From contig JAPLKU010000008.1 of assembly GCA_026387935.1 (NCBI GenBank), positions 1 through 44,276 of the forward strand: DNA of 44,276 nt, in the 5' to 3' direction. The DNA comes from Gemmatimonadota bacterium (lineage in GTDB: Bacteria > Gemmatimonadota > Gemmatimonadetes > Gemmatimonadales > Gemmatimonadaceae). Of this stretch, positions 2,144 through 10,517 are shown one piece after another. Each line of letters begins with the position of its first letter. Within the stretch, counting starts at the first letter, position 1. The notes under the pieces were generated by a model, which saw only the letters and a list, made by a program, of their open reading frames with translations, ran no database searches and had not been told where the DNA came from. Position numbers and translations under genes: made by a program.

Positions 2144-4597
2144 GTGCCTGCGCCTTCAACCGACCGGCCGCAGATTTTTCCGGACGAGCTGCCACTGTTG
2201 GCGCTCCGCAGCACAATCGTCTTCCCGCACGGACGCATCGCCGTGCAAGTGGGGACCGCCGAGAACCTCGCGCTGCTCCGTTCGCTCGAGGGCAATCAGG
2301 GGCTCGTGCTCGTTGCCGTCGCGCTCGGGCCGAACGCGGATGATCTCGAACGCCTCGTTGAACGGATTGGCGTGGTGGCGCGTGTGCGCGACCGCACCGA
2401 CGCCGGCGCGGGCACGCTGCAAGTCACACTCGAGGGCGTTGCACGGGCGCACATCGGCGCGCTCACCCGTCGCGTGCCATTTGCCATGGCGGCGGTGCGC
2501 GTGGCCGAGGAAACCGCCGCCACGCCGGGCGCAGCGGACGCTGCGATTGAACGGATCATCCGCGCGGCGGAAACCATCGCCGAAGTCGACGAGAAATTCC
2601 CGGCAGAACTCGCCGGCCTGATCACGCGGCACGCGAACCATCCGTCGCGCGCGGCCGATCTCGCCGCCGCGCACGCGAACCTTCGCGTCAGCGAGCGCGA
2701 CGAGTTTCTCCAGTGCCTCGACCCGGCCGAGCGGCTCGACCGGCTCGCGCTGAAGTACGAAAAAGAAGTCGCACGCGCGCAGGTGGTCGACGAGGTGCAG
2801 CGCAAAACAACGGTGAATGTCGCGCAGCACCATCGCGAGTTCTTCCTCCGGCAGCAGCTGCAGGCCATTCGCGCCGAACTCGGCGAGCGCGATGGCACCG
2901 AGAGCGAAGCGGATGAACTGCTCCGCCAGATTGCCGACGCCGGGCTGCCGGCACATGTCGCGCAGGAAGCGCGTCGCGAAACGGAACGGCTCCGCTCGTT
3001 ACCGGCCGCATCGAGCGAATATCAGGTGCTGCGCAATTATCTCGATTGGGTGCTCGCGCTGCCGTGGACGCGCGCCTCTGGCAGCGCGGAGATTCCGCTC
3101 GACAAGGTCGAACAGGCCCTCGACGAACGGCACTACGGCCTCGAGGAAGCGAAGGAGCGCATCCTCGAATACCTCTCTGTGCGTCAGTTGCTTGGCGCGG
3201 GCGGCCGCGACCACGGGCCCGTGCTTTGCTTGGTCGGACCGCCGGGCACGGGCAAGACGTCACTGGGTGAAGCAATCGCGGCAAGCATTGGCCGCGCGTT
3301 TTATCGCATCTCCGTTGGCGGCGTGCGCGACGAAGCGGAAGTGCGTGGCCACCGCCGCACGTATGTGGGATCGATGCCGGGACTCATCGTGCAAGCCATG
3401 CGGCGCGCGCAGTCGAAGAATCCGGTGTTGATGATTGACGAAATCGACAAGATGGCCGCGGGCGGGCCGGGCGGCGATCCGCTGGCGGCAATGCTCGAGG
3501 TGCTCGATCCGTCGCAGAACGGAACGTTCGTGGATCACTATCTCAACGTGCCGTTCGATCTCTCGTCCGTGTTGTTCATCTGCACGGCGAACTCGCTGCT
3601 GGATATTCCCGCGCCGCTGCGTGATCGCATGGAAGTGATTCGCATCGCCGGCTACACGGTTGAGGAAAAAGTCGAGATCGCGTGGCGCTACCTGCTGCCG
3701 CGACTCTTCAAGGAACATGGCATCACCGACCGCGATCTTCAGTTCACCGACGAATCGCTCTCGACGGTGTCCACGCGCTATTCGCGCGAGGCCGGCCTCA
3801 GAAACTTCGAGCGCAATCTGGCCGCACTGATGCGCCGGCGTGCGCGCCGCAAGGCACAGGGCGAGGAAGGCGCGTGGATCGTGGATGGCGCGCGCATTGA
3901 TGCGGTGCTTGGCGCGCCGCGGTACCCCGCGGACGAGGCCGAAGTGGAGCCGGAAATCGGCACCGTCACCGGACTGGCGTGGACCGCCGCCGGTGGTGAA
4001 CTGATGACCATCGAAGCGCTGCGGATGCCGGGCACCGGCAAGCTGCATGTGACCGGCCAACTCGGCGACGTCATGCGCGAGTCGGTGGACGCGGCCTGCT
4101 CCTACGTGCGATCGATGGCGAAACAACTGCGCATTGAAGACGCGGAGATGAAACGGACGGACCTGCACATCCACTTTCCGGCAGGCTCTGTGCCGAAAGA
4201 CGGCCCGAGCGCCGGCGTGGCCGTGACACTGGCGATTGCCAGCGTGATGAGCCGCCGACCGGTGCGACGCGACATTGCCGTGACGGGCGAAGTGACGCTG
4301 CGCGGCCGCATTCTGGAGATTGGCGGCGTAAAGGAAAAGGTGCTCGCCTCGTACCGCGCCGGTCTGCGCGAAGTGATCCTGCCGTCGGCGAATGCAAAGG
4401 ATCTCCGCGACCTGCCGGCCGTCGTTCGCGAACAGATGCGCATCACCTTCGCGGCATCAATGGATGACGTGCTCGCGCGAATGCTGCTCGCACCGCTCAG
4501 CGTCACGCCAGACGCAGACCTGCCGGCGATCGACGCGCAACTCCCGGAAAACCAAGCGCCTCGCCCGAGTTCGTCGGACGACGCGTGGCCTGCGTGA
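2144..4597 (+). CDS. lon: ATP-dependent Lon protease
   Basis: Cytoplasmic AAA+ serine protease that degrades damaged and regulatory proteins. From the GTG at 2144 it is 817 residues, the usual size. The N-terminal substrate-recognition domain is followed by Walker A GPPGTGKT (365-372) and Walker B MIDEIDK (about 429-435). The protease domain has Ser689 in DGPSAGV and Lys732 in GGVKEK, a spacing equal to E. coli S679/K722. The frame is open upstream to 1988, but that stretch is repeat-derived and unlike Lon. I chose GTG 2144 because FVPAPSTDRPQIFPDELPLL leads into the conserved start and AGG sits 9 bases upstream. TTG 2135 is an alternative. It is divergent from ffh and not linked to the clpP-clpX cluster at 36 kb. 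Confidence 0.96.
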   Translation: MPAPSTDRPQIFPDELPLLALRSTIVFPHGRIAVQVGTAENLALLRSLEGNQGLVLVAVALGPNADDLERLVERIGVVARVRDRTDAGAGTLQVTLEGVARAHIGALTRRVPFAMAAVRVAEETAATPGAADAAIERIIRAAETIAEVDEKFPAELAGLITRHANHPSRAADLAAAHANLRVSERDEFLQCLDPAERLDRLALKYEKEVARAQVVDEVQRKTTVNVAQHHREFFLRQQLQAIRAELGERDGTESEADELLRQIADAGLPAHVAQEARRETERLRSLPAASSEYQVLRNYLDWVLALPWTRASGSAEIPLDKVEQALDERHYGLEEAKERILEYLSVRQLLGAGGRDHGPVLCLVGPPGTGKTSLGEAIAASIGRAFYRISVGGVRDEAEVRGHRRTYVGSMPGLIVQAMRRAQSKNPVLMIDEIDKMAAGGPGGDPLAAMLEVLDPSQNGTFVDHYLNVPFDLSSVLFICTANSLLDIPAPLRDRMEVIRIAGYTVEEKVEIAWRYLLPRLFKEHGITDRDLQFTDESLSTVSTRYSREAGLRNFERNLAALMRRRARRKAQGEEGAWIVDGARIDAVLGAPRYPADEAEVEPEIGTVTGLAWTAAGGELMTIEALRMPGTGKLHVTGQLGDVMRESVDAACSYVRSMAKQLRIEDAEMKRTDLHIHFPAGSVPKDGPSAGVAVTLAIASVMSRRPVRRDIAVTGEVTLRGRILEIGGVKEKVLASYRAGLREVILPSANAKDLRDLPAVVREQMRITFAASMDDVLARMLLAPLSVTPDADLPAIDAQLPENQAPRPSSSDDAWPA

Positions 4598-4657
4598 GCG
4601 CAGCTTCACTACTGCCAGAGACACGGAACCTGTTGAGCGACCGCCGCAATCAATCAG

Positions 4658-4856
4658 GGTCTCGGCGCTATCGCGGGGTACGGAACACTCCCGGATAGAC
4701 CGGACAGGCACCAGTTACAGCCACTACAACTGGCTGGGGGGAACTGCGAGCGCCGCGCCAACCTCGCACCGTACTTGCGGTTCGCCGATGGAGTGTCGCG
4801 CCGAACACATCCGATGCGTCCGGCCTTTGTCCGCCACCCGCGATAGCGCCGAGACC
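4658..4856. mobile_element. Non-coding ~0.2 kb element with 19-bp perfect terminal inverted repeats (MITE-like)
   Basis: GGTCTCGGCGCTATCGCGG at 4658-4676 is repeated exactly in inverted form at 4838-4856, so the segment is a 199-bp inverted-repeat-bounded unit between lon and the next gene. Similarity between the ends continues inward for about 30 bases in the pattern GCGGA..., CCGGA... and CGGA. The same terminal sequence bounds the GxxExxY gene at 8.9-9.5 kb. No transposase is encoded and no clear target duplication is seen. It could be a MITE-like non-autonomous element or a large regulatory hairpin repeat. Mobility is inferred, the repeat structure is direct. Confidence 0.55.
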
Positions 4857-5039
4857 TCTCAACGGGGGTTTGACACCAGGTTCAGAGTCGCGCGCTAGTA
4901 GGTCGTGGTGGTTCAAAGCTGGAATCGGTGCGGTGACAATGGGAACGCCGCCGCCAGTCTGGGGCGTACCCGTGGCGAGCGAGGCATTGATACTGCCGTC
5001 CTGCGACGTCACGGCGGAGATGTAGTTCGCAATGGTCAT
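4668..5039 (-). CDS. Small hypothetical ORF running into the repeat element
   Basis: A possible 123-residue protein from ATG 5039, with GGGAG 6 bases upstream as a plausible ribosome binding site. The first ~60 residues (MTIANYISAVTSQDGSINAS and on) are Ser/Thr/Gly/Pro-rich. The rest is translated from the inverted-repeat element at 4658-4856, so the natural C-terminus may have been replaced by the element. I do not recognise it. It lies downstream of the HExxH lipoprotein gene on the same strand with a 54-bp gap. It could equally be chance coding. Confidence 0.25.
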   Translation of the reverse strand: MTIANYISAVTSQDGSINASLATGTPQTGGGVPIVTAPIPALNHHDLLARDSEPGVKPPLRGLGAIAGGGQRPDASDVFGATLHRRTASTVRGWRGARSSPQPVVVAVTGACPVYPGVFRTPR

Positions 5040-5066
5040 CACTTACTCCCGACGGCTGCACGAACG

Positions 5067-5088
5067 CTGTACCCCTGCTGTACCCCTG
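5067..5088. repeat. Perfect 11-bp tandem duplication in intergenic DNA
   Basis: CTGTACCCCTG occurs twice back to back (5067-5077, 5078-5088), followed by a third partial CTG. It has the same unit length as the duplication interrupting ffh. It lies between the stop of the HExxH lipoprotein and the small ORF. Confidence 0.9.
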
Positions 5089-5096
5089 CTGAACAA

Positions 5097-6374
5097 CTAC
5101 TTGATGCCGGCGAGCTTCACCTTGGCCGGATCGATGAGCCGAGTGCGGGCTCCCGCCGGAACGTCCGTATACATCACCGCGGCATGCCCCTGTACCGTCA
5201 CCGCGACCAGTTCCACGGACCTGCCTTTTCCCGAATAGCGCAGCGTCGCGCCTGCACCGCCAGCGCCATCCTTGAGATCGAGTCGCTTTTCGATCGCCTG
5301 CGACATCAGCGAGAGAAACTCCGCGCCGTCGAACGGGGTGTCCCAAACCGTAAACCAGACCAGTCCTGCGCCCTGCGGGGTAGTGACGATCATGTATCGA
5401 TCACCGCCCCACCCTGTGGCACCGCGTGAAGCCGACGCCACGTCGTTCAACTGCTGGTGGAGCACCAGGCGCGTTTCGAATTCGCCCAGTCCATTCTCGT
5501 AGGACACCGTCGCACCGGTCGGTCGCGGCAGCGTGACCGTGATCGGCAAGTCGACTTTTTCGAGCAGCTTCTCCGGATGCATCACCTGCTCGGTGCTCAC
5601 CGGAAGTGCGGCGAGGGACGACTGCCCGGGCCGCTTGTCCTTGAACTGCCGGATGAACTCCGCACCGCTCAGATATGGAAACAGCAGCGTCTCCTGGATG
5701 AACAATGGCGCCGTCGAAAACACCGGCATTGTTCCCTGGGAGTCGCGAATCGTCTGGCGCACTCGATCCCAACCACCGGGCATCCGCGAGAACATGTTCC
5801 CGCCGCCCAGCATCGCGCTCAACTGCTCGTAGGTCGCGCCGCCTTCGATGACCGCCTGCGCCGCCATCGACCGGTCATTGTCGCCGTGGATCTTGGCTAT
5901 TGAATCGAGCGGCAGGTACTGGTCCTGCAGCGCGTGGACGAGTTCATGCGTGATGGTGACGCTCAGCACATCAGGCGGCGGCACGGAAGCTCCGGAGCCG
6001 CCGCTTACCACGTACAGAACTTTTGTGGCCGGGTCGTAGTAACCAATGACCTGCTCGGCCAGTAACGAGAGCAGAAAAGGCCTCAGCTTCAGGGTGTCCG
6101 GCAGGACCCCGAAAAGTTTGTAGGCGCGCTCCTGGCTGGCCAGCTCAAGGGCCGGTTGATCCTCGTCGAACTTGCTCTCGAGGAAAGCGCGGAGTTCGTC
6201 CTTGGTCCGCGCCTGAACCTTTGGTGCGGTTTTGAACTTCAGCCCAGTGGCCTTCTCGACCATGGGAATCGCCTTGGCGACCTCGGCGGCGTACGGGCCG
6301 GCCGCAGCGGAGGAGTCAGCCTGGCAGGCGGCCAGCAACGGGACGGTAGCGAGTGCGGCGAGTAAGCGAATCAT
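5097..6374 (-). CDS. HExxH metallopeptidase-like lipoprotein
   Basis: A 425-residue predicted lipoprotein. The N-terminus MIRLLAALATVPLLAACQAD is a signal peptide with lipobox and Cys17. A zinc motif HELVH is at 143-147 (THELVHALQDQ) and Glu177 in VIEGGATYEQ fits a gluzincin-type third ligand, so a zinc peptidase is likely. The substrate is unknown, and I see no assignment to a well-described family. The frame is open well upstream, but ATG 6374 is chosen because it starts the signal peptide and overlaps the prepilin peptidase stop as ATGA, implying translational coupling. It would act in the envelope, probably in the periplasm. Confidence 0.75.
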   Translation of the reverse strand: MIRLLAALATVPLLAACQADSSAAAGPYAAEVAKAIPMVEKATGLKFKTAPKVQARTKDELRAFLESKFDEDQPALELASQERAYKLFGVLPDTLKLRPFLLSLLAEQVIGYYDPATKVLYVVSGGSGASVPPPDVLSVTITHELVHALQDQYLPLDSIAKIHGDNDRSMAAQAVIEGGATYEQLSAMLGGGNMFSRMPGGWDRVRQTIRDSQGTMPVFSTAPLFIQETLLFPYLSGAEFIRQFKDKRPGQSSLAALPVSTEQVMHPEKLLEKVDLPITVTLPRPTGATVSYENGLGEFETRLVLHQQLNDVASASRGATGWGGDRYMIVTTPQGAGLVWFTVWDTPFDGAEFLSLMSQAIEKRLDLKDGAGGAGATLRYSGKGRSVELVAVTVQGHAAVMYTDVPAGARTRLIDPAKVKLAGIK

Positions 6375-7192
6375 CCGGTGAGGTGGCCGATGTACCAAGT
6401 GAGCAGTGGATCGCCCCAAAACAGTGCGACCACTGAGGCGGGTGCGAGAAATACGCCGAAGGGTACGAGCGGCGTCTCGAATTCCACCTTCCGGGCGCGC
6501 GCGCGGAGCCATGCAATGGGAATCACCATCAGAAGGAATGCGGCGGCGCCAAGCACCGCGGCAATCAGCACGGTGAGGAGTGCACGCCCGGGTCCGAGCG
6601 CAGCGCCGGACATGGCCATCAAGGTCGAATCCCCGAAGCCCATCGCTTCCTTCTTGAGCGCGACTTCGCCGAGCCAACCGACAATGGTGATTGCGCCGGC
6701 GCCAACGCAGGCGCCGAACAGCGCGTCGAGCGGGCCGGCGAATGGGTAGTCGCCGCCAAGAAAGACGCCGGCGATGCTCGCTGCGATGACGAAGAGCAGG
6801 CCGGTCACCGTGAAGCCATCGGGGATGACGTACTCCCGCAGGTCGGTTACAGCGATCCCGAGGAGGATCGTCACGAAAATCGCGAGACGGAGCGCCAGGA
6901 ACGTCGGCCCGGCATAGTCGACTGACGCGACCCAGATGAGCCCCGTGAGCGCCTCAACCGTCGGATAAAGCGGCGAAATCGGGAGGCCGCAGCTCCGGCA
7001 CCGTGCGCGAAGCACGAACCAGGAGACCACGGGGATGTTGTCGTACCACGCGAGCCCGTTGCCGCACCGTGGACACTTCGACCGCGGCCTGATGACGGAC
7101 TCGTCTGCCGGCCAGCGGAGGATGCACACGTTCAGGAAGGACCCGATGCAGGCGCCAACACAGAACACGTACACCCAGACGATGACGCTCAT
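6371..7192 (-). CDS. pilD: Prepilin peptidase / N-methyltransferase (A24 family)
   Basis: Polytopic inner-membrane aspartic protease that cleaves type IV prepilins or type II secretion pseudopilins and methylates the new N-terminus. The 273-residue protein has the N-terminal cytoplasmic domain with two CxxC pairs (Cys40/43 in CPRCG, Cys65/68 in CRSCG). Catalytic Asp117 in TDLREYVIPD and Asp188 in GFGD follow, set among hydrophobic helices. The second motif reads GFGDSTL where GxGDxKL is usual. It overlaps the metallopeptidase lipoprotein by 4 bases and lies 7 bp beyond the trmH-like stop. A PilB-type ATPase at 40.8-43.0 kb is a plausible partner of the same pilus or secretion system. Confidence 0.93.
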   Translation of the reverse strand: MSVIVWVYVFCVGACIGSFLNVCILRWPADESVIRPRSKCPRCGNGLAWYDNIPVVSWFVLRARCRSCGLPISPLYPTVEALTGLIWVASVDYAGPTFLALRLAIFVTILLGIAVTDLREYVIPDGFTVTGLLFVIAASIAGVFLGGDYPFAGPLDALFGACVGAGAITIVGWLGEVALKKEAMGFGDSTLMAMSGAALGPGRALLTVLIAAVLGAAAFLLMVIPIAWLRARARKVEFETPLVPFGVFLAPASVVALFWGDPLLTWYIGHLTG

Positions 7193-7199
7193 ACGACCC

Positions 7200-7985
7200 T
7201 CATCGGCTCAACGCATAGAGCAGCACGCCGGCGGCGACGCCGACATTGAGTGATTCGACGCCTGGCGTCATGGGCAGGGAGACGAATTCCGCCGCCGCCT
7301 CGCGTACGGCCGCGCTGAGGCCGGCGCCTTCATTCCCGACGGCGATGGCCAGCGATGCCGGCGCGCGCACGGAGGACACCGCGCGTCCCGCCGCATCAGC
7401 GCCCCAGAGCGGTACGCCGGCCGCGCGCAGCACGTCGAGCAATTCGGTCAGGGGAGCGTGCATCACGTTGACATGAAAGTGACCGCCCGCTGCGCCGCGC
7501 ACCACTTTCGCGTTCCAGAGGTCTGCGGTGCCGGGCAGGGCCACCAGCGTCTGCACGCCCAGCGCCGCGGCGGTGCGGACCAGTGTTCCCACGTTGCCGG
7601 GATCCTGGATTCCGTCGAGCACGAGCACGCGCTGCCGGTCTGCCGGCGTCCGCGAGCTGAGGGTCCGCTCTGGAAGTTCGGCGATCGCCTACACCCCCTG
7701 CGGGTGCTCCGTGTCGGCCGCCGACTTGAATTCTTCTTCGCTCACCGTGGCGACGTCCAGGCCGCGAGCCGTGACGGCCGCGATCAGCGCCGCCCCACGC
7801 GGGTGCTCCGCTACGCTCTCCGTGGCGAGCACGCCAGAAATAGGCAGCGCGGCGCGCAGCAGATCCTCCACCGCGCGAACGCCTTCGGAGACGAAGAGCG
7901 CCGAACGCTCGCGCGCCTTGCGACGCTTGAGGTCCCTCGCGAGGGTTAACACTGCTGCCGATGATTTTCCTTGAGTCCGATCCAT
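7200..7985 (-). pseudogene. TrmH/SpoU family RNA 2'-O-methyltransferase, interrupted by an in-frame TAG
   Basis: SPOUT-fold methyltransferase of the 23S rRNA/tRNA 2'-O-methylating kind. The N-terminal substrate-binding part runs from ATG 7985 (KARERSALFVSEG and on) to TEHPQGV and stops at TAG 7689-7691, codon 99. The same frame then continues AIAELPERT and into the SAM-binding knot VLVLDGIQDPGNVGTLVRTA, NEGAGLS and ESLNVGVAAGVLLY. Family members usually read QGVLA or similar here, so one substitution (TTG to TAG) explains the break. Without it the protein would be 261 residues, a normal length. GTG 7628 could start a 142-residue catalytic fragment but no ribosome binding site is evident. Suppression, pseudogene or base-call error cannot be separated from sequence alone. 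GTG 7952 is an alternative start. Confidence 0.88.
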
Positions 7986-7997
7986 TCCGCCTCTGAC

Positions 7998-8879
7998 ATG
8001 ACCATTCGAACCACCGGCGCGCGTTACACGGCGAGCAACACGGCGAGCAACACGGCGCGCCACACTTCGAAGACGCTCAGCCTCGCGCGCGCGTTTCTCC
8101 TCTGCACGATTGTCGCCAGCACCGGCTGCGCCATCAGCACCCAGCAAGAAGTCCAGATGGGCCAGAATTACGCGGCCCAGGTGGAGAAAGAGCTTCCCAT
8201 CGTTCGCGACCCGGAAATCGTCCGGTATATCAACGTACTCGGAGATTCGCTCGCCGGCGTCACCGACGACCGGTCGCTGACCTGGCACTTCTCGGTGGTG
8301 GATGCCAAGGAGATCAACGCATTTGCGATTCCGGGTGGATACATCTTCGTGAATCGCGGGCTCATTGAACGCGCGACCAACCTGGCCGAGGTGGCCGGAG
8401 TGCTCGGACACGAAATCGGGCACGTCACCAGGCGGCACAGCATCAAACAGATGCAAAAAGCCCAGGGCGCCAACATGGGGATGACCCTGGCCTGCATCCT
8501 GACGAACATCTGCAACAGTGGACTGGCGCAAACGGGGATTCAACTCGCCGCCGGCGGCGTCTTCGCAAAGTTCAGTCGCGATGATGAATCCGAGGCCGAC
8601 GCTGAAGGGGTGAAAACCGTGATCCGGGCGCATCTCGATCCGGCCGGGATTCCGCAGATGTTTCGGATTCTGTTGGACGAACGCAAGTCGCGGCCGGACG
8701 GCGTGGATGCGTTCTTCCTCTCGCATCCGCTCGAGGAAAACCGGATTGCCGCATCGCAGCAAATGATTGCGACCTACCCGGCGGCCGCGCTGAAGGGGCT
8801 CACGCAGGATTCGCCGAACTTTCAGGCGTTCAAGAAGCGGCTGCTGTCGTTGCCGCCGAGCCCGCCGACGAAGAAGTAG
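7998..8879 (+). CDS. M48-family zinc metalloprotease lipoprotein
   Basis: Envelope metalloprotease resembling the BepA/LoiP/YcaL group that handles outer-membrane protein and envelope quality control. The 293-residue product has a long basic Thr/Ala-rich n-region, a hydrophobic core LARAFLLCTIVASTGC with Cys44 as probable lipidation site, the zinc motif HEIGH at 138-142, and ESEAD at 197-201 supplying the third ligand. The n-region includes a 12-bp perfect tandem repeat (8026-8049, coding TASN-TASN) that keeps the frame. ATG 7998 starts only 12 bp from the divergent trmH-like ATG, so the promoters must lie inside each other's coding region. ATG-like starts further upstream (7971) are possible but overlap more. 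Confidence 0.88.
   Translation: MTIRTTGARYTASNTASNTARHTSKTLSLARAFLLCTIVASTGCAISTQQEVQMGQNYAAQVEKELPIVRDPEIVRYINVLGDSLAGVTDDRSLTWHFSVVDAKEINAFAIPGGYIFVNRGLIERATNLAEVAGVLGHEIGHVTRRHSIKQMQKAQGANMGMTLACILTNICNSGLAQTGIQLAAGGVFAKFSRDDESEADAEGVKTVIRAHLDPAGIPQMFRILLDERKSRPDGVDAFFLSHPLEENRIAASQQMIATYPAAALKGLTQDSPNFQAFKKRLLSLPPSPPTKK
8026..8057. repeat. 12-bp tandem duplication in the M48 signal region
   Basis: ACACGGCGAGCA at 8026-8037 is repeated exactly at 8038-8049 and partly (8 bases) at 8050-8057. The unit keeps the frame and duplicates TASN in the signal peptide n-region. Confidence 0.9.
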
Positions 8880-8917
8880 CGCAACGGCCCCAGGGTTGGT
8901 CTAAGCACCAAATGAGG

Positions 8918-9475
8918 GGTCTCGGCGCTATCGCGGGTGCGGACCACGGCCGGATGAATCGGACCTGTTCGGCGTGAATATCCTGAGGAACTTTGCTTCG
9001 GGGCCGAAGTGCAGGAGCAAGCCGACTTCAAGGTTCGTCGCCCGCAGGTAATTGTGCAGTTGCCGCTTTGCGACTGGGTGCAGCGCGGCGGTGGACTTCA
9101 CCTCGACGACAACCGATTCATCGACGAGCAGGTCGAGGCGATGAAACCCGAGTTCTTGTCCCTTGTACATGACCTGCACCGCGTGTTCGCGGGAAACCAT
9201 ATGCCCGGCTGCAACGAGTTCGCGCTCCAGCGCTGCGCAATAGTGACTCTCCAGGAACCCGTATCCGAGCGTCCGGTACAATTCGTAGAACGCGCCGATG
9301 ATGGAGCGGGTAAGATCGTGGTGCGCGAGTTCAGTTTCTGTCATGCCGCAAACTGAACTCTCCCTCGCACCCCCTCATCATCTTTTTGCCTTCGCCAGAA
9401 TCGTTTCTCCGCCTGCGCCGCTGAGCAATCCGCACACTCCGGCGGTGTTCCGCTCCACGCGATAGCGCCGAGACC
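8918..9475. mobile_element. Inverted-repeat-bounded element carrying a GxxExxY gene
   Basis: The left end, GGTCTCGGCGCTATCGCGG at 8918-8936, is identical to the ends of the element at 4658-4856. The right end at 9457-9475 is the inverted copy with 18 of 19 matches. Similarity extends inward by about 30 bases at both ends (GCGGA, CCGGA and CGGA blocks in the same spacing). Between the ends lies a single gene of the GxxExxY family, whose stop codon sits inside the left repeat. The right end opens directly into a 21-bp repeat array. No transposase is present, so mobilisation, if any, would be in trans or by an unknown route. Confidence 0.5.
8928..9344 (-). CDS. GxxExxY family protein (PD-(D/E)XK-like fold)
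   Basis: A 138-residue protein of the widespread GxxExxY family, function unknown. The naming motif is Gly29-Glu32-Tyr35 in GFLESHY. Asp71 in HRLDLLVD with Glu81 and Lys83 in VVEVKST matches the PD-(D/E)XK nuclease-like core, and a QLHNYLRATN block follows. The last ~13 residues (NRSDSSGRGPHPR) are encoded by the terminal inverted repeat, and the TAG stop lies in the repeat core GCGATAGCGCC. From general knowledge, these genes tend to sit with intergenic repeats and to have repeat-encoded tails in other phyla. It lies alone between the M48 gene and the PNP gene. No catalytic activity is demonstrated here. Confidence 0.85.
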   Translation of the reverse strand: MTETELAHHDLTRSIIGAFYELYRTLGYGFLESHYCAALERELVAAGHMVSREHAVQVMYKGQELGFHRLDLLVDESVVVEVKSTAALHPVAKRQLHNYLRATNLEVGLLLHFGPEAKFLRIFTPNRSDSSGRGPHPR

Positions 9476-9649
9476 CCGGCCGATAGCGCCTATATCCCGG
9501 CTGATAGCGCCGCGATCCCAGCCGATAGCGCCTATACCCCGGCCGATAGCGCCGAGCTCCCAGCCGATAGCGCCGCGATCCCAGCCGATAGCGCCGAGCT
9601 CCCAGCCGATAGCGCCTATATCCCGGCCGATAGCGCCGGGGTCCCGGCC
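9461..9649. repeat. Nine tandem 21-bp repeats
   Basis: Nine head-to-tail units, each exactly 21 bp, fill 9461-9649. Each is GATAGCGCC, then five variable bases (GAGAC, TATAT, GCGAT, TATAC, GAGCT, GCGAT, GAGCT, TATAT, GGGGT), then CCCGGCC, CCCAGCC or CCCGGCT. The first unit begins inside the right terminal inverted repeat of the GxxExxY element, so the array seems to have grown from it. It contains no gene. The rest of the 9345-9665 gap (9345-9456) shows nothing but the inner flank of the repeat. It ends 16 bp from the PNP stop codon. Confidence 0.95.
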
Positions 9650-9665
9650 GGTTTGGAAGCCCGGA

Positions 9666-10517
9666 CTAAAGTTTTTTCACGAATGACTCTAGCAAGTCGC
9701 CGAAGCGCTTGGACGCGAGTCCAGCCTCCATCATCACGTCCTCGTGTCGCACGGGGCCGTCGGATAATCCGGCGGCGGGGTTCGTGACGAGGCTGACCGC
9801 GACGAACTCCATACCAAGCGCGGCAGCAACTATCGCTTCGCACACCGTGGACATGCCCGTCACGGTGGCGCCGAGGCCGGCGAGCATCCGAACTTCGCTC
9901 GGCGTCTCATACACCGGACCCGTCAGCCCGACGTAGACGCCGGGCTTGAGCGCAATCCCGAGTTCCGCCGCTGCTGTTCGCACCAGCGCGCGGAGCCGCG
10001 GCGAGTGTGCAGCCGACATGTCCGGAAACCGCACATCGCCCGGCTCGACGCTGCCGAAAAGCGGATTGTGCCCAGTCAGGTTGATATGATCGTCGAGCAG
10101 CACGAGATCGCCCGCATTGAGCGAGCGTTCCAGTCCGCCGGCCGCGTTGCTCGCGAACAGGACGCGCGCGCCGAGCGCATGCACCACGCGCACCGGGAAG
10201 GCCGACGCGCGTGCGGTGTGGCCCTCATACATATGAAACCGGCCACCGAGCGCGATGACTTCACGTCCGCCCAGTGTGCCGGCGTAGAGCCGACCAGCAT
10301 GGCCTTCCACGGCGGTGGCGGAAAAGCCGGGAATCTCCTGATAGGGCATTTCGCGGACATGCTGCAATCGGCTGACTACATCACCGAGGCCTGAGCCGAG
10401 CACGATCGCCGCTGCCGGAGTGCGCACCGCCAGCCGTTCGCGCACGATGGTTGCAGCCGTCGCAGCCGCCGCGGCGCCCCATGCAGCCGCCCACGGGTCG
10501 CCATCACGGTCGATCAC
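9666..10517 (-). CDS. punA: Purine nucleoside phosphorylase (trimeric PNP/MTAP family)
   Basis: Splits inosine/guanosine with phosphate into base and ribose-1-phosphate. The 283-residue protein has phosphate-binding GSGLG at 41-45, GRFHMYEGH at 92-100, SNAAGG near 123-128, VYETPSE and GMSTVCEA, with TNPAAG for the purine site. These are hallmarks of the low-molecular-weight trimeric class. The start is GTG 10517, which overlaps the adenosine deaminase stop as GTGA, so the two are translationally coupled. As the last gene of the cassette it uses inosine made by the deaminase. The symbol follows actinobacterial/Bacillus usage; deoD would imply the hexameric class. Confidence 0.93.
   Translation of the reverse strand: MIDRDGDPWAAAWGAAAAATAATIVRERLAVRTPAAAIVLGSGLGDVVSRLQHVREMPYQEIPGFSATAVEGHAGRLYAGTLGGREVIALGGRFHMYEGHTARASAFPVRVVHALGARVLFASNAAGGLERSLNAGDLVLLDDHINLTGHNPLFGSVEPGDVRFPDMSAAHSPRLRALVRTAAAELGIALKPGVYVGLTGPVYETPSEVRMLAGLGATVTGMSTVCEAIVAAALGMEFVAVSLVTNPAAGLSDGPVRHEDVMMEAGLASKRFGDLLESFVKKL

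Follow-up and report, generated by a model that had tools for sequence, protein, structure and literature searches.

Repeats of the repetitive extragenic palindromic (REP) type are palindromes of 20-40 bp with a GTAG or CGTC tag at one end (PMC3733652), and the RAYT protein that goes with them is a HuH enzyme close to the transposases of IS200/IS605 (PMC8266576). A small selfish element of another kind, with one open reading frame (ORF) in a stem, is the S23p intervening sequence (IVS) of 23S rRNA genes, which in Coxiella burnetii has tandem heptamers, GACAGAT, before its ORF (PMC4990558). Here we describe a unit that would work like these systems and is a member of neither: a 558-bp stretch of a Gemmatimonadota genome in which a single gene of the GxxExxY family, coding for a predicted PD-(D/E)XK nuclease, lies between inverted arms that also occur as gene-less pairs elsewhere in the genome. 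The stretch of DNA analysed (the window, 44,276 nt, GenBank JAPLKU010000008.1) is one entire contig of a 2.8-Mb metagenome-assembled genome (MAG) in 28 contigs. Annotations of GxxExxY proteins exist in several phyla, with no function known for the family, and a link to arms of their own gives them a testable role and a DNA substrate. A full-text literature search, covering few subscription journals, returned only incidental mentions of GxxExxY, and an earlier description is possible.

The likeness to the REP/RAYT systems (TnpA-REP, REPtrons, REPINs) lies in one small nuclease gene set in inverted palindromic repeats and in the many gene-less inverted pairs per genome; the differences are the PD-(D/E)XK protein, the arms built of short phased units and the frequent occurrence of the gene in several copies. 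The enclosed protein is not the HuH (Y1) enzyme of those systems (RAYT genes elsewhere in the genome were not searched for), and the end consensus, GGTCTCGGCGCTAtCGCG, is without a GTAG or CGTC tag. With the S23p IVS the unit shares its small size, its putatively selfish character, the one ORF and the short repeats, but the IVS combines a four-helix-bundle protein with 7-bp units and an rRNA site, whereas here a nuclease is combined with 8-9-bp units and an intergenic site. Assignment to the IVS fails on the identity of the ORF as GxxExxY and on its location between protein genes, and an Rfam search of window positions 4000-10500 gave no match. The miniature inverted-repeat elements (MITEs) of insertion sequences are likewise short, gene-less and dispersed, with terminal inverted repeats; here, in contrast, target duplications were not found at the elements of the source genome and no transposase parent was identified (no transposase search was made), although in one related genome, G069, the units lie inside transposon-like ends. 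Nucleases of the Cas4/RecB type have the same fold and E-D-ExK-QxxxY residues, but GxxExxY is half the size of Cas4, is not beside cas genes in the loci read and matches it weakly in sequence.

The initial annotation of the window had noted four copies of one end sequence, arranged as an empty inverted pair and a pair around a GxxExxY gene, and these were recovered at exactly 4658-4676/4838-4856 and 8918-8936/9457-9475. An 18-mer, GGTCTCGGCGCTATCGCG, is present without mismatch in all four ends; at up to three mismatches it has 6 matches in the window against 0.20 expected, a number reached by none of 100 dinucleotide shuffles, and hence the four-end match is not expected by chance. The complementarity of the arms extends past 19 bp, over 47 nt at 74% in the gene-less element and over 40 aligned columns in the gene-bearing one, and the single-strand fold of the former has a z-score of -4.6. 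As the initial annotation had proposed, gene and repeat form one unit: the final 12-13 codons of the gene and its TAG stop lie inside the ~50-bp end, an arrangement that recurs at other loci (see below). The features are collected in Table 1.

Table 1. Features of the two elements and their surroundings (window positions)
Feature	Position	Strand	Basis
Gene-less palindrome, 199 bp, with a central hairpin between inverted ~50-bp ends	4658..4856		sequence; fold
Left arm of gene-less element	4658..4707	+	end alignment
Right arm of gene-less element	4807..4856	-	end alignment
Gene-bearing element, 558 bp	8918..9475		paired ends; insertion between conserved neighbours
Arm downstream of GxxExxY gene, coding for its last 12-13 codons and stop	8918..8967	+	sequence
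Arm upstream of GxxExxY gene	9426..9475	-	end alignment
GxxExxY gene, 138 aa, predicted PD-(D/E)XK nuclease with E32, D71, E81-x-K83, Q95-x3-Y99	8928..9344	-	HMM, model, alignment
Tandem array of nine units of 21 bp; its first unit belongs to the right end of the gene-bearing element	9460..9648		sequence
M48-type peptidase gene, neighbour outside element	7971..8879	+	flank comparison
Purine nucleoside phosphorylase (PNP)-like gene, neighbour outside element	9666..10517	-	flank comparison

Both elements belong to one MITE-like family of short dispersed copies with terminal inverted repeats, in line with the earlier suggestion. At up to two mismatches the end occurs 59 times in the source genome against 0-7 times per genome in 60 relatives, mostly near the reversed control, and at up to three mismatches 89 times against 12 in the control. 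Neighbouring ends form 20 inward-facing pairs (counting C17:35913/36106, of 211 bp, and leaving out one 24-bp self-overlap) and no outward-facing ones; roughly one end in three stands alone, so that the predominance of unpaired copies, which had been named as evidence against such a family, is not what the genome displays. Besides the gene-bearing 558 bp, the pairs fall into two size classes, of 114-128 and 190-214 bp. Across 62 aligned ends conservation begins sharply at GGTCTCGG and fades about 50 bp inward, with CGGA motifs about 11 bp apart, and outside the end motif conservation is weak and limited to the last few bases. Among 14 complete elements (13 from the source genome and one from G013) the ends are common to all and a central GGGGGAACTGC palindrome is present in most. 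These elements fold strongly as single strands, yet none of 28 stem pairs in their alignment shows compensatory change; hence selection on pairing as such is unsupported, and what the elements conserve is motif sequence, set in inverted order, which would be expected if the ends bind protein. The 18-bp end also occurs joined to other hairpins without CGGA arms (L002:1501-1630, L007:1501-1650), and since these hairpins differ, the end motif can evidently be combined with other palindromes. It is further amplified in tandem beside elements, as nine 21-bp units at window 9460-9648 and as 18-bp units at L025:1465-1518; this 21-bp array, built from end sequence, and the approximately 60 genome copies go beyond the initial annotation.

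The source genome has three GxxExxY genes. The copy on contig C21 has related arms (CGGATGAACGCGGATG) on both sides and again ends, with its C-terminus and stop, inside an arm; the gene upstream of it is also present at the G005 locus. The third is at a contig edge, where bracketing is not assessable.

To the M48 peptidase and PNP genes that flank the gene-bearing unit correspond convergent neighbours in 14 relatives, with a gap of -23 to 210 bp and no GxxExxY gene between them, whereas in the source genome the gap is 786 bp and is filled by the unit and the 21-bp array. This comparison shows the unit to be, as far as gene order reveals, an insertion between the two genes. Downstream of Lon, at the site of the gene-less element, most relatives carry another gene, and thus offer no clean empty site; at both sites the relatives are without the family, and fixation at the same positions in all relatives, which the initial annotation would have counted against mobility, was not observed. 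At 19 elements of the source genome direct repeats were no longer than in swapped controls, such that the target-site duplication typical of MITEs of DDE transposons was not found there, though old duplications may have decayed.

The association between arms and GxxExxY genes, first suspected from this one locus, extends far beyond its genome. We collected 66 GxxExxY loci from 30 genomes of Gemmatimonadota, Sumerlaeota, Verrucomicrobia and Deltaproteobacteria and scored a gene as bracketed if inverted repeats on either side reached a local score of at least 30. By this measure 42 of the 66 loci have bracketing arms against none of 113 neighbouring ORFs (Fisher p 4e-24), although the 66 are not all independent, since some are orthologous; only 8 of 792 swapped flank pairs pass the same threshold, and at least one bracketed locus is found in 25 of the 30 genomes. 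The stop codon lies within an arm in 12 of the 42. The arms are inward-pointing runs of short 8-9-bp units (CRCVRRK), this being the best period in 22 of 32 periodic GxxExxY flanks, while 6 of 290 control segments are periodic. CRCVRRK units spaced 8-10 bp apart face inward in both flanks at 23 of 76 loci and face outward at 2; the figures are 6/418 and 5/418 for control segments and 0/30 for loci of four-helix-bundle (4HB, S23p-like) genes. The unit was derived from the tested arms themselves, and hence the inward bias, not the count, is the independent part of this test. Plasmid records gave CACAGAG arms in Bacteroides finegoldii (score 45; L255, where the gene follows radA) and Bernardetia (36) and arms with a score of 224 in Gemmatirosa, the source of the closest protein match in the plasmid collection, while GxxExxY loci of Treponema, Fusobacteria and Persicobacter fell below the threshold. 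A search of a contig collection with a single GxxExxY protein yielded 3 loci, and a search of phages gave no match. In a plasmid record of Sphingomonas parapaucimobilis (L259:1974-2402) the gene is packed between fabD and fabG in an operon-like manner, with gaps of 33 and 2 bp.

Mobility, which the initial annotation could offer only as a surmise, finds direct evidence in the dispersal of such a unit in the Sumerlaeota MAG G097. Two units there, L177 and L180, share 468 bp at 95.7% identity, with flanks that are unrelated. The common stretch runs from ~14 bp outside the left arm to ~5-10 bp beyond the right arm, with no duplication. This one clear pair, the youngest encountered, is direct evidence for dispersal of the whole unit; the other matches to it in G097 are short arm fragments only. 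In G016, a congener of the window's species, six gene-less elements and one unit with a gene share arms that read ACGCCGC(A/G)GATNNNCGC(G/A)GAT, and the arrangement of the window is thereby repeated in a second species. At L269 (G011:C34:14500-15700) near-identical gene-less palindromes of ~118 bp form a tandem series immediately downstream of a GxxExxY gene.

The protein of the unit is a clear member of its family by both TIGR04256 (E 6e-33, 113.7 bits against a cut-off of 35) and Pfam PDDEXK_3 (PF13366; E 3e-33, 115.3 bits against 22). Its AF2 model (pLDDT 88) has as best match in the PDB the Cas4 protein SSO0001 (Foldseek E 4e-5, Z 10.0), followed at lower Z by Hjc and lambda-exonuclease-like folds, scores that may mean only a common arrangement; the match to the Cas4b HMM is weak, and PADLOC gave only weak Cas4 matches. 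Residues E32, D71, E81, K83 and Q95 are invariant among 12 sequences. By fold and catalytic residues, the protein is apparently an intact RecB/Cas4-like PD-(D/E)XK nuclease, and given the intact fold and invariant active-site residues it is probably active.

We lean towards reading the 558-bp unit as a one-gene selfish element, with a GxxExxY nuclease that acts on its own arms. That it disperses as a unit is very probable; that the nuclease drives this dispersal is a proposition we favour by a modest degree. The enzyme would recognise the arms by their phased units (CGGA every ~11 bp here, CRCVRRK every 8-9 bp elsewhere) and would cut there, probably in an extruded cruciform or hairpin, after which host repair would copy the unit to a new place and leave no target duplication. 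The 199-bp element and some 18 other gene-less pairs would then be non-autonomous relatives of the putatively autonomous 558-bp unit, mobilised by it in trans. Such a mechanism would account for the short-period inverted repeats around GxxExxY genes in Gemmatimonadota, Sumerlaeota, Verrucomicrobia, Deltaproteobacteria and Bacteroidota, and would represent a second, independent answer, with another nuclease fold, to the spread of REP-like repeats.

Several observations weigh against this proposal, and some of them suit other explanations. No arms reach the threshold at 24 of the 66 loci, and several GxxExxY genes appear to be vertically inherited or operon-like. Remnants of GxxExxY were not found inside the gene-less copies of the source genome, and hence their origin by internal deletion is unsupported there. 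Across the genus the number of repeats is poorly correlated with the presence of GxxExxY (Spearman 0.31, p 0.21); the correlation with the sum of GxxExxY and 4HB genes is better (0.51, p 0.03), but this sum was tried post hoc, the pattern is generic and the 4HB arms differ. A wider draw from the phylum, judged by eye, displayed no clear trend of copy number with the gene. The genome G013 has one gene-less element and no GxxExxY gene, and G014, of the same genus, has 68 matches to CGCRGRKNNNCGCRGRK against 4 in the control, with no GxxExxY gene and 11 four-helix-bundle genes. These two cases are as expected if an unrelated transposase, DDE or HuH, moved the arms and palindromes as MITEs, GxxExxY having settled inside one of them as cargo. 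The best evidence for such a history comes from G069, of the same family as the source, where several GxxExxY units (L151-L157) are internally deleted to 28-50 codons and amplified; they are enclosed by terminal inverted repeats of the sequence GTAGTGGGTCAGTTT, accompanied by direct duplications of 8-9 bp (GCTACTCTG, GGCCGCTG and GGGCGCCG, read by eye). These ends resemble those of the IS21 type and may belong to it. In this genome movement was evidently due to other ends, and the unit can thus be a passenger. As a general account this is nonetheless unlikely, for the arm type tracks the gene family across phyla (8-9-bp CRCVRRK for GxxExxY, 7-bp for 4HB), and the two copies in G097 have their borders at or close to the arms and lack a duplication, as do, by the control comparison, the 19 elements of the source genome.

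The absence of duplications at those 19 elements also fits a history of homing, in which the nuclease gene invades older palindromes: gene-less ones are cut by the nuclease and the gene is copied in by recombination through shared arms, so that the palindromes themselves need not move. PD-(D/E)XK folds are known among homing enzymes, and arms common to gene-bearing and gene-less elements are present in both G000 and G016. We regard homing as distinctly unlikely: the G097 copies lie in unrelated flanks in a genome whose other matches are arm fragments, and it leaves unexplained how gene-less palindromes reached 20 places. The very stable folds, the Cas4-like fold of the protein, the operon-like setting of some of the genes and the processing of the S23p element by RNase III (PMC4990558) might instead point to a stabilised or addictive cassette, with the arms acting as RNA or DNA structures (in processing, termination or silencing) around a resident nuclease with a host or defence role. 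The stem without compensatory changes and the wide dispersal of gene-less copies, which would need another cause, make this very improbable, and no defence-system neighbours were found in the few loci checked. These genomes do contain many short repeats, but that ordinary intergenic repeats merely happen to lie beside GxxExxY genes is scarcely credible, being contradicted by the bracketing controls and by the inward bias of the units.

The layout has a parallel in a sister class. Among TIGR02436 loci (L199-L228), 24 of 30 4HB genes are bracketed by inverted repeats against 4 of 450 controls, and 26 of 32 periodic 4HB flanks have 7 bp as their best period. In G085 two 4HB units (L205:1363-1885 and L224:1361-1885, gene-oriented) are 90% identical over 526 bp in unrelated flanks, with their borders at GTCAGGA heptamer arms; this pair represents dispersal of the sister class. 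A broader proposal, which we hold tentatively, is that GxxExxY proteins could serve a widespread and so far undescribed kind of single-gene mobile element. The part played elsewhere by HuH or DDE transposases would fall to a RecB/Cas4-like PD-(D/E)XK nuclease, which would copy itself and gene-less palindromes via inverted 8-9-bp arrays. S23p/4HB genes with 7-bp arrays would share this layout as a second class, and debris of both classes would make up many of the unexplained short-period repeats between genes of environmental bacteria. The heptamer repeats of Xanthomonas, which commonly form convergent pairs and which their authors did not connect with mobile elements (PMC4692102), may belong to the 4HB class. 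The deltaproteobacterial MAG G095 has 34 TIGR02436 matches, many of them in adjoining or overlapping pairs on opposite strands (e.g. C3:12794-13373, C19:5962-6541 and C10:82591-83170), as though each arm of a large inverted repeat had received a copy of the gene.

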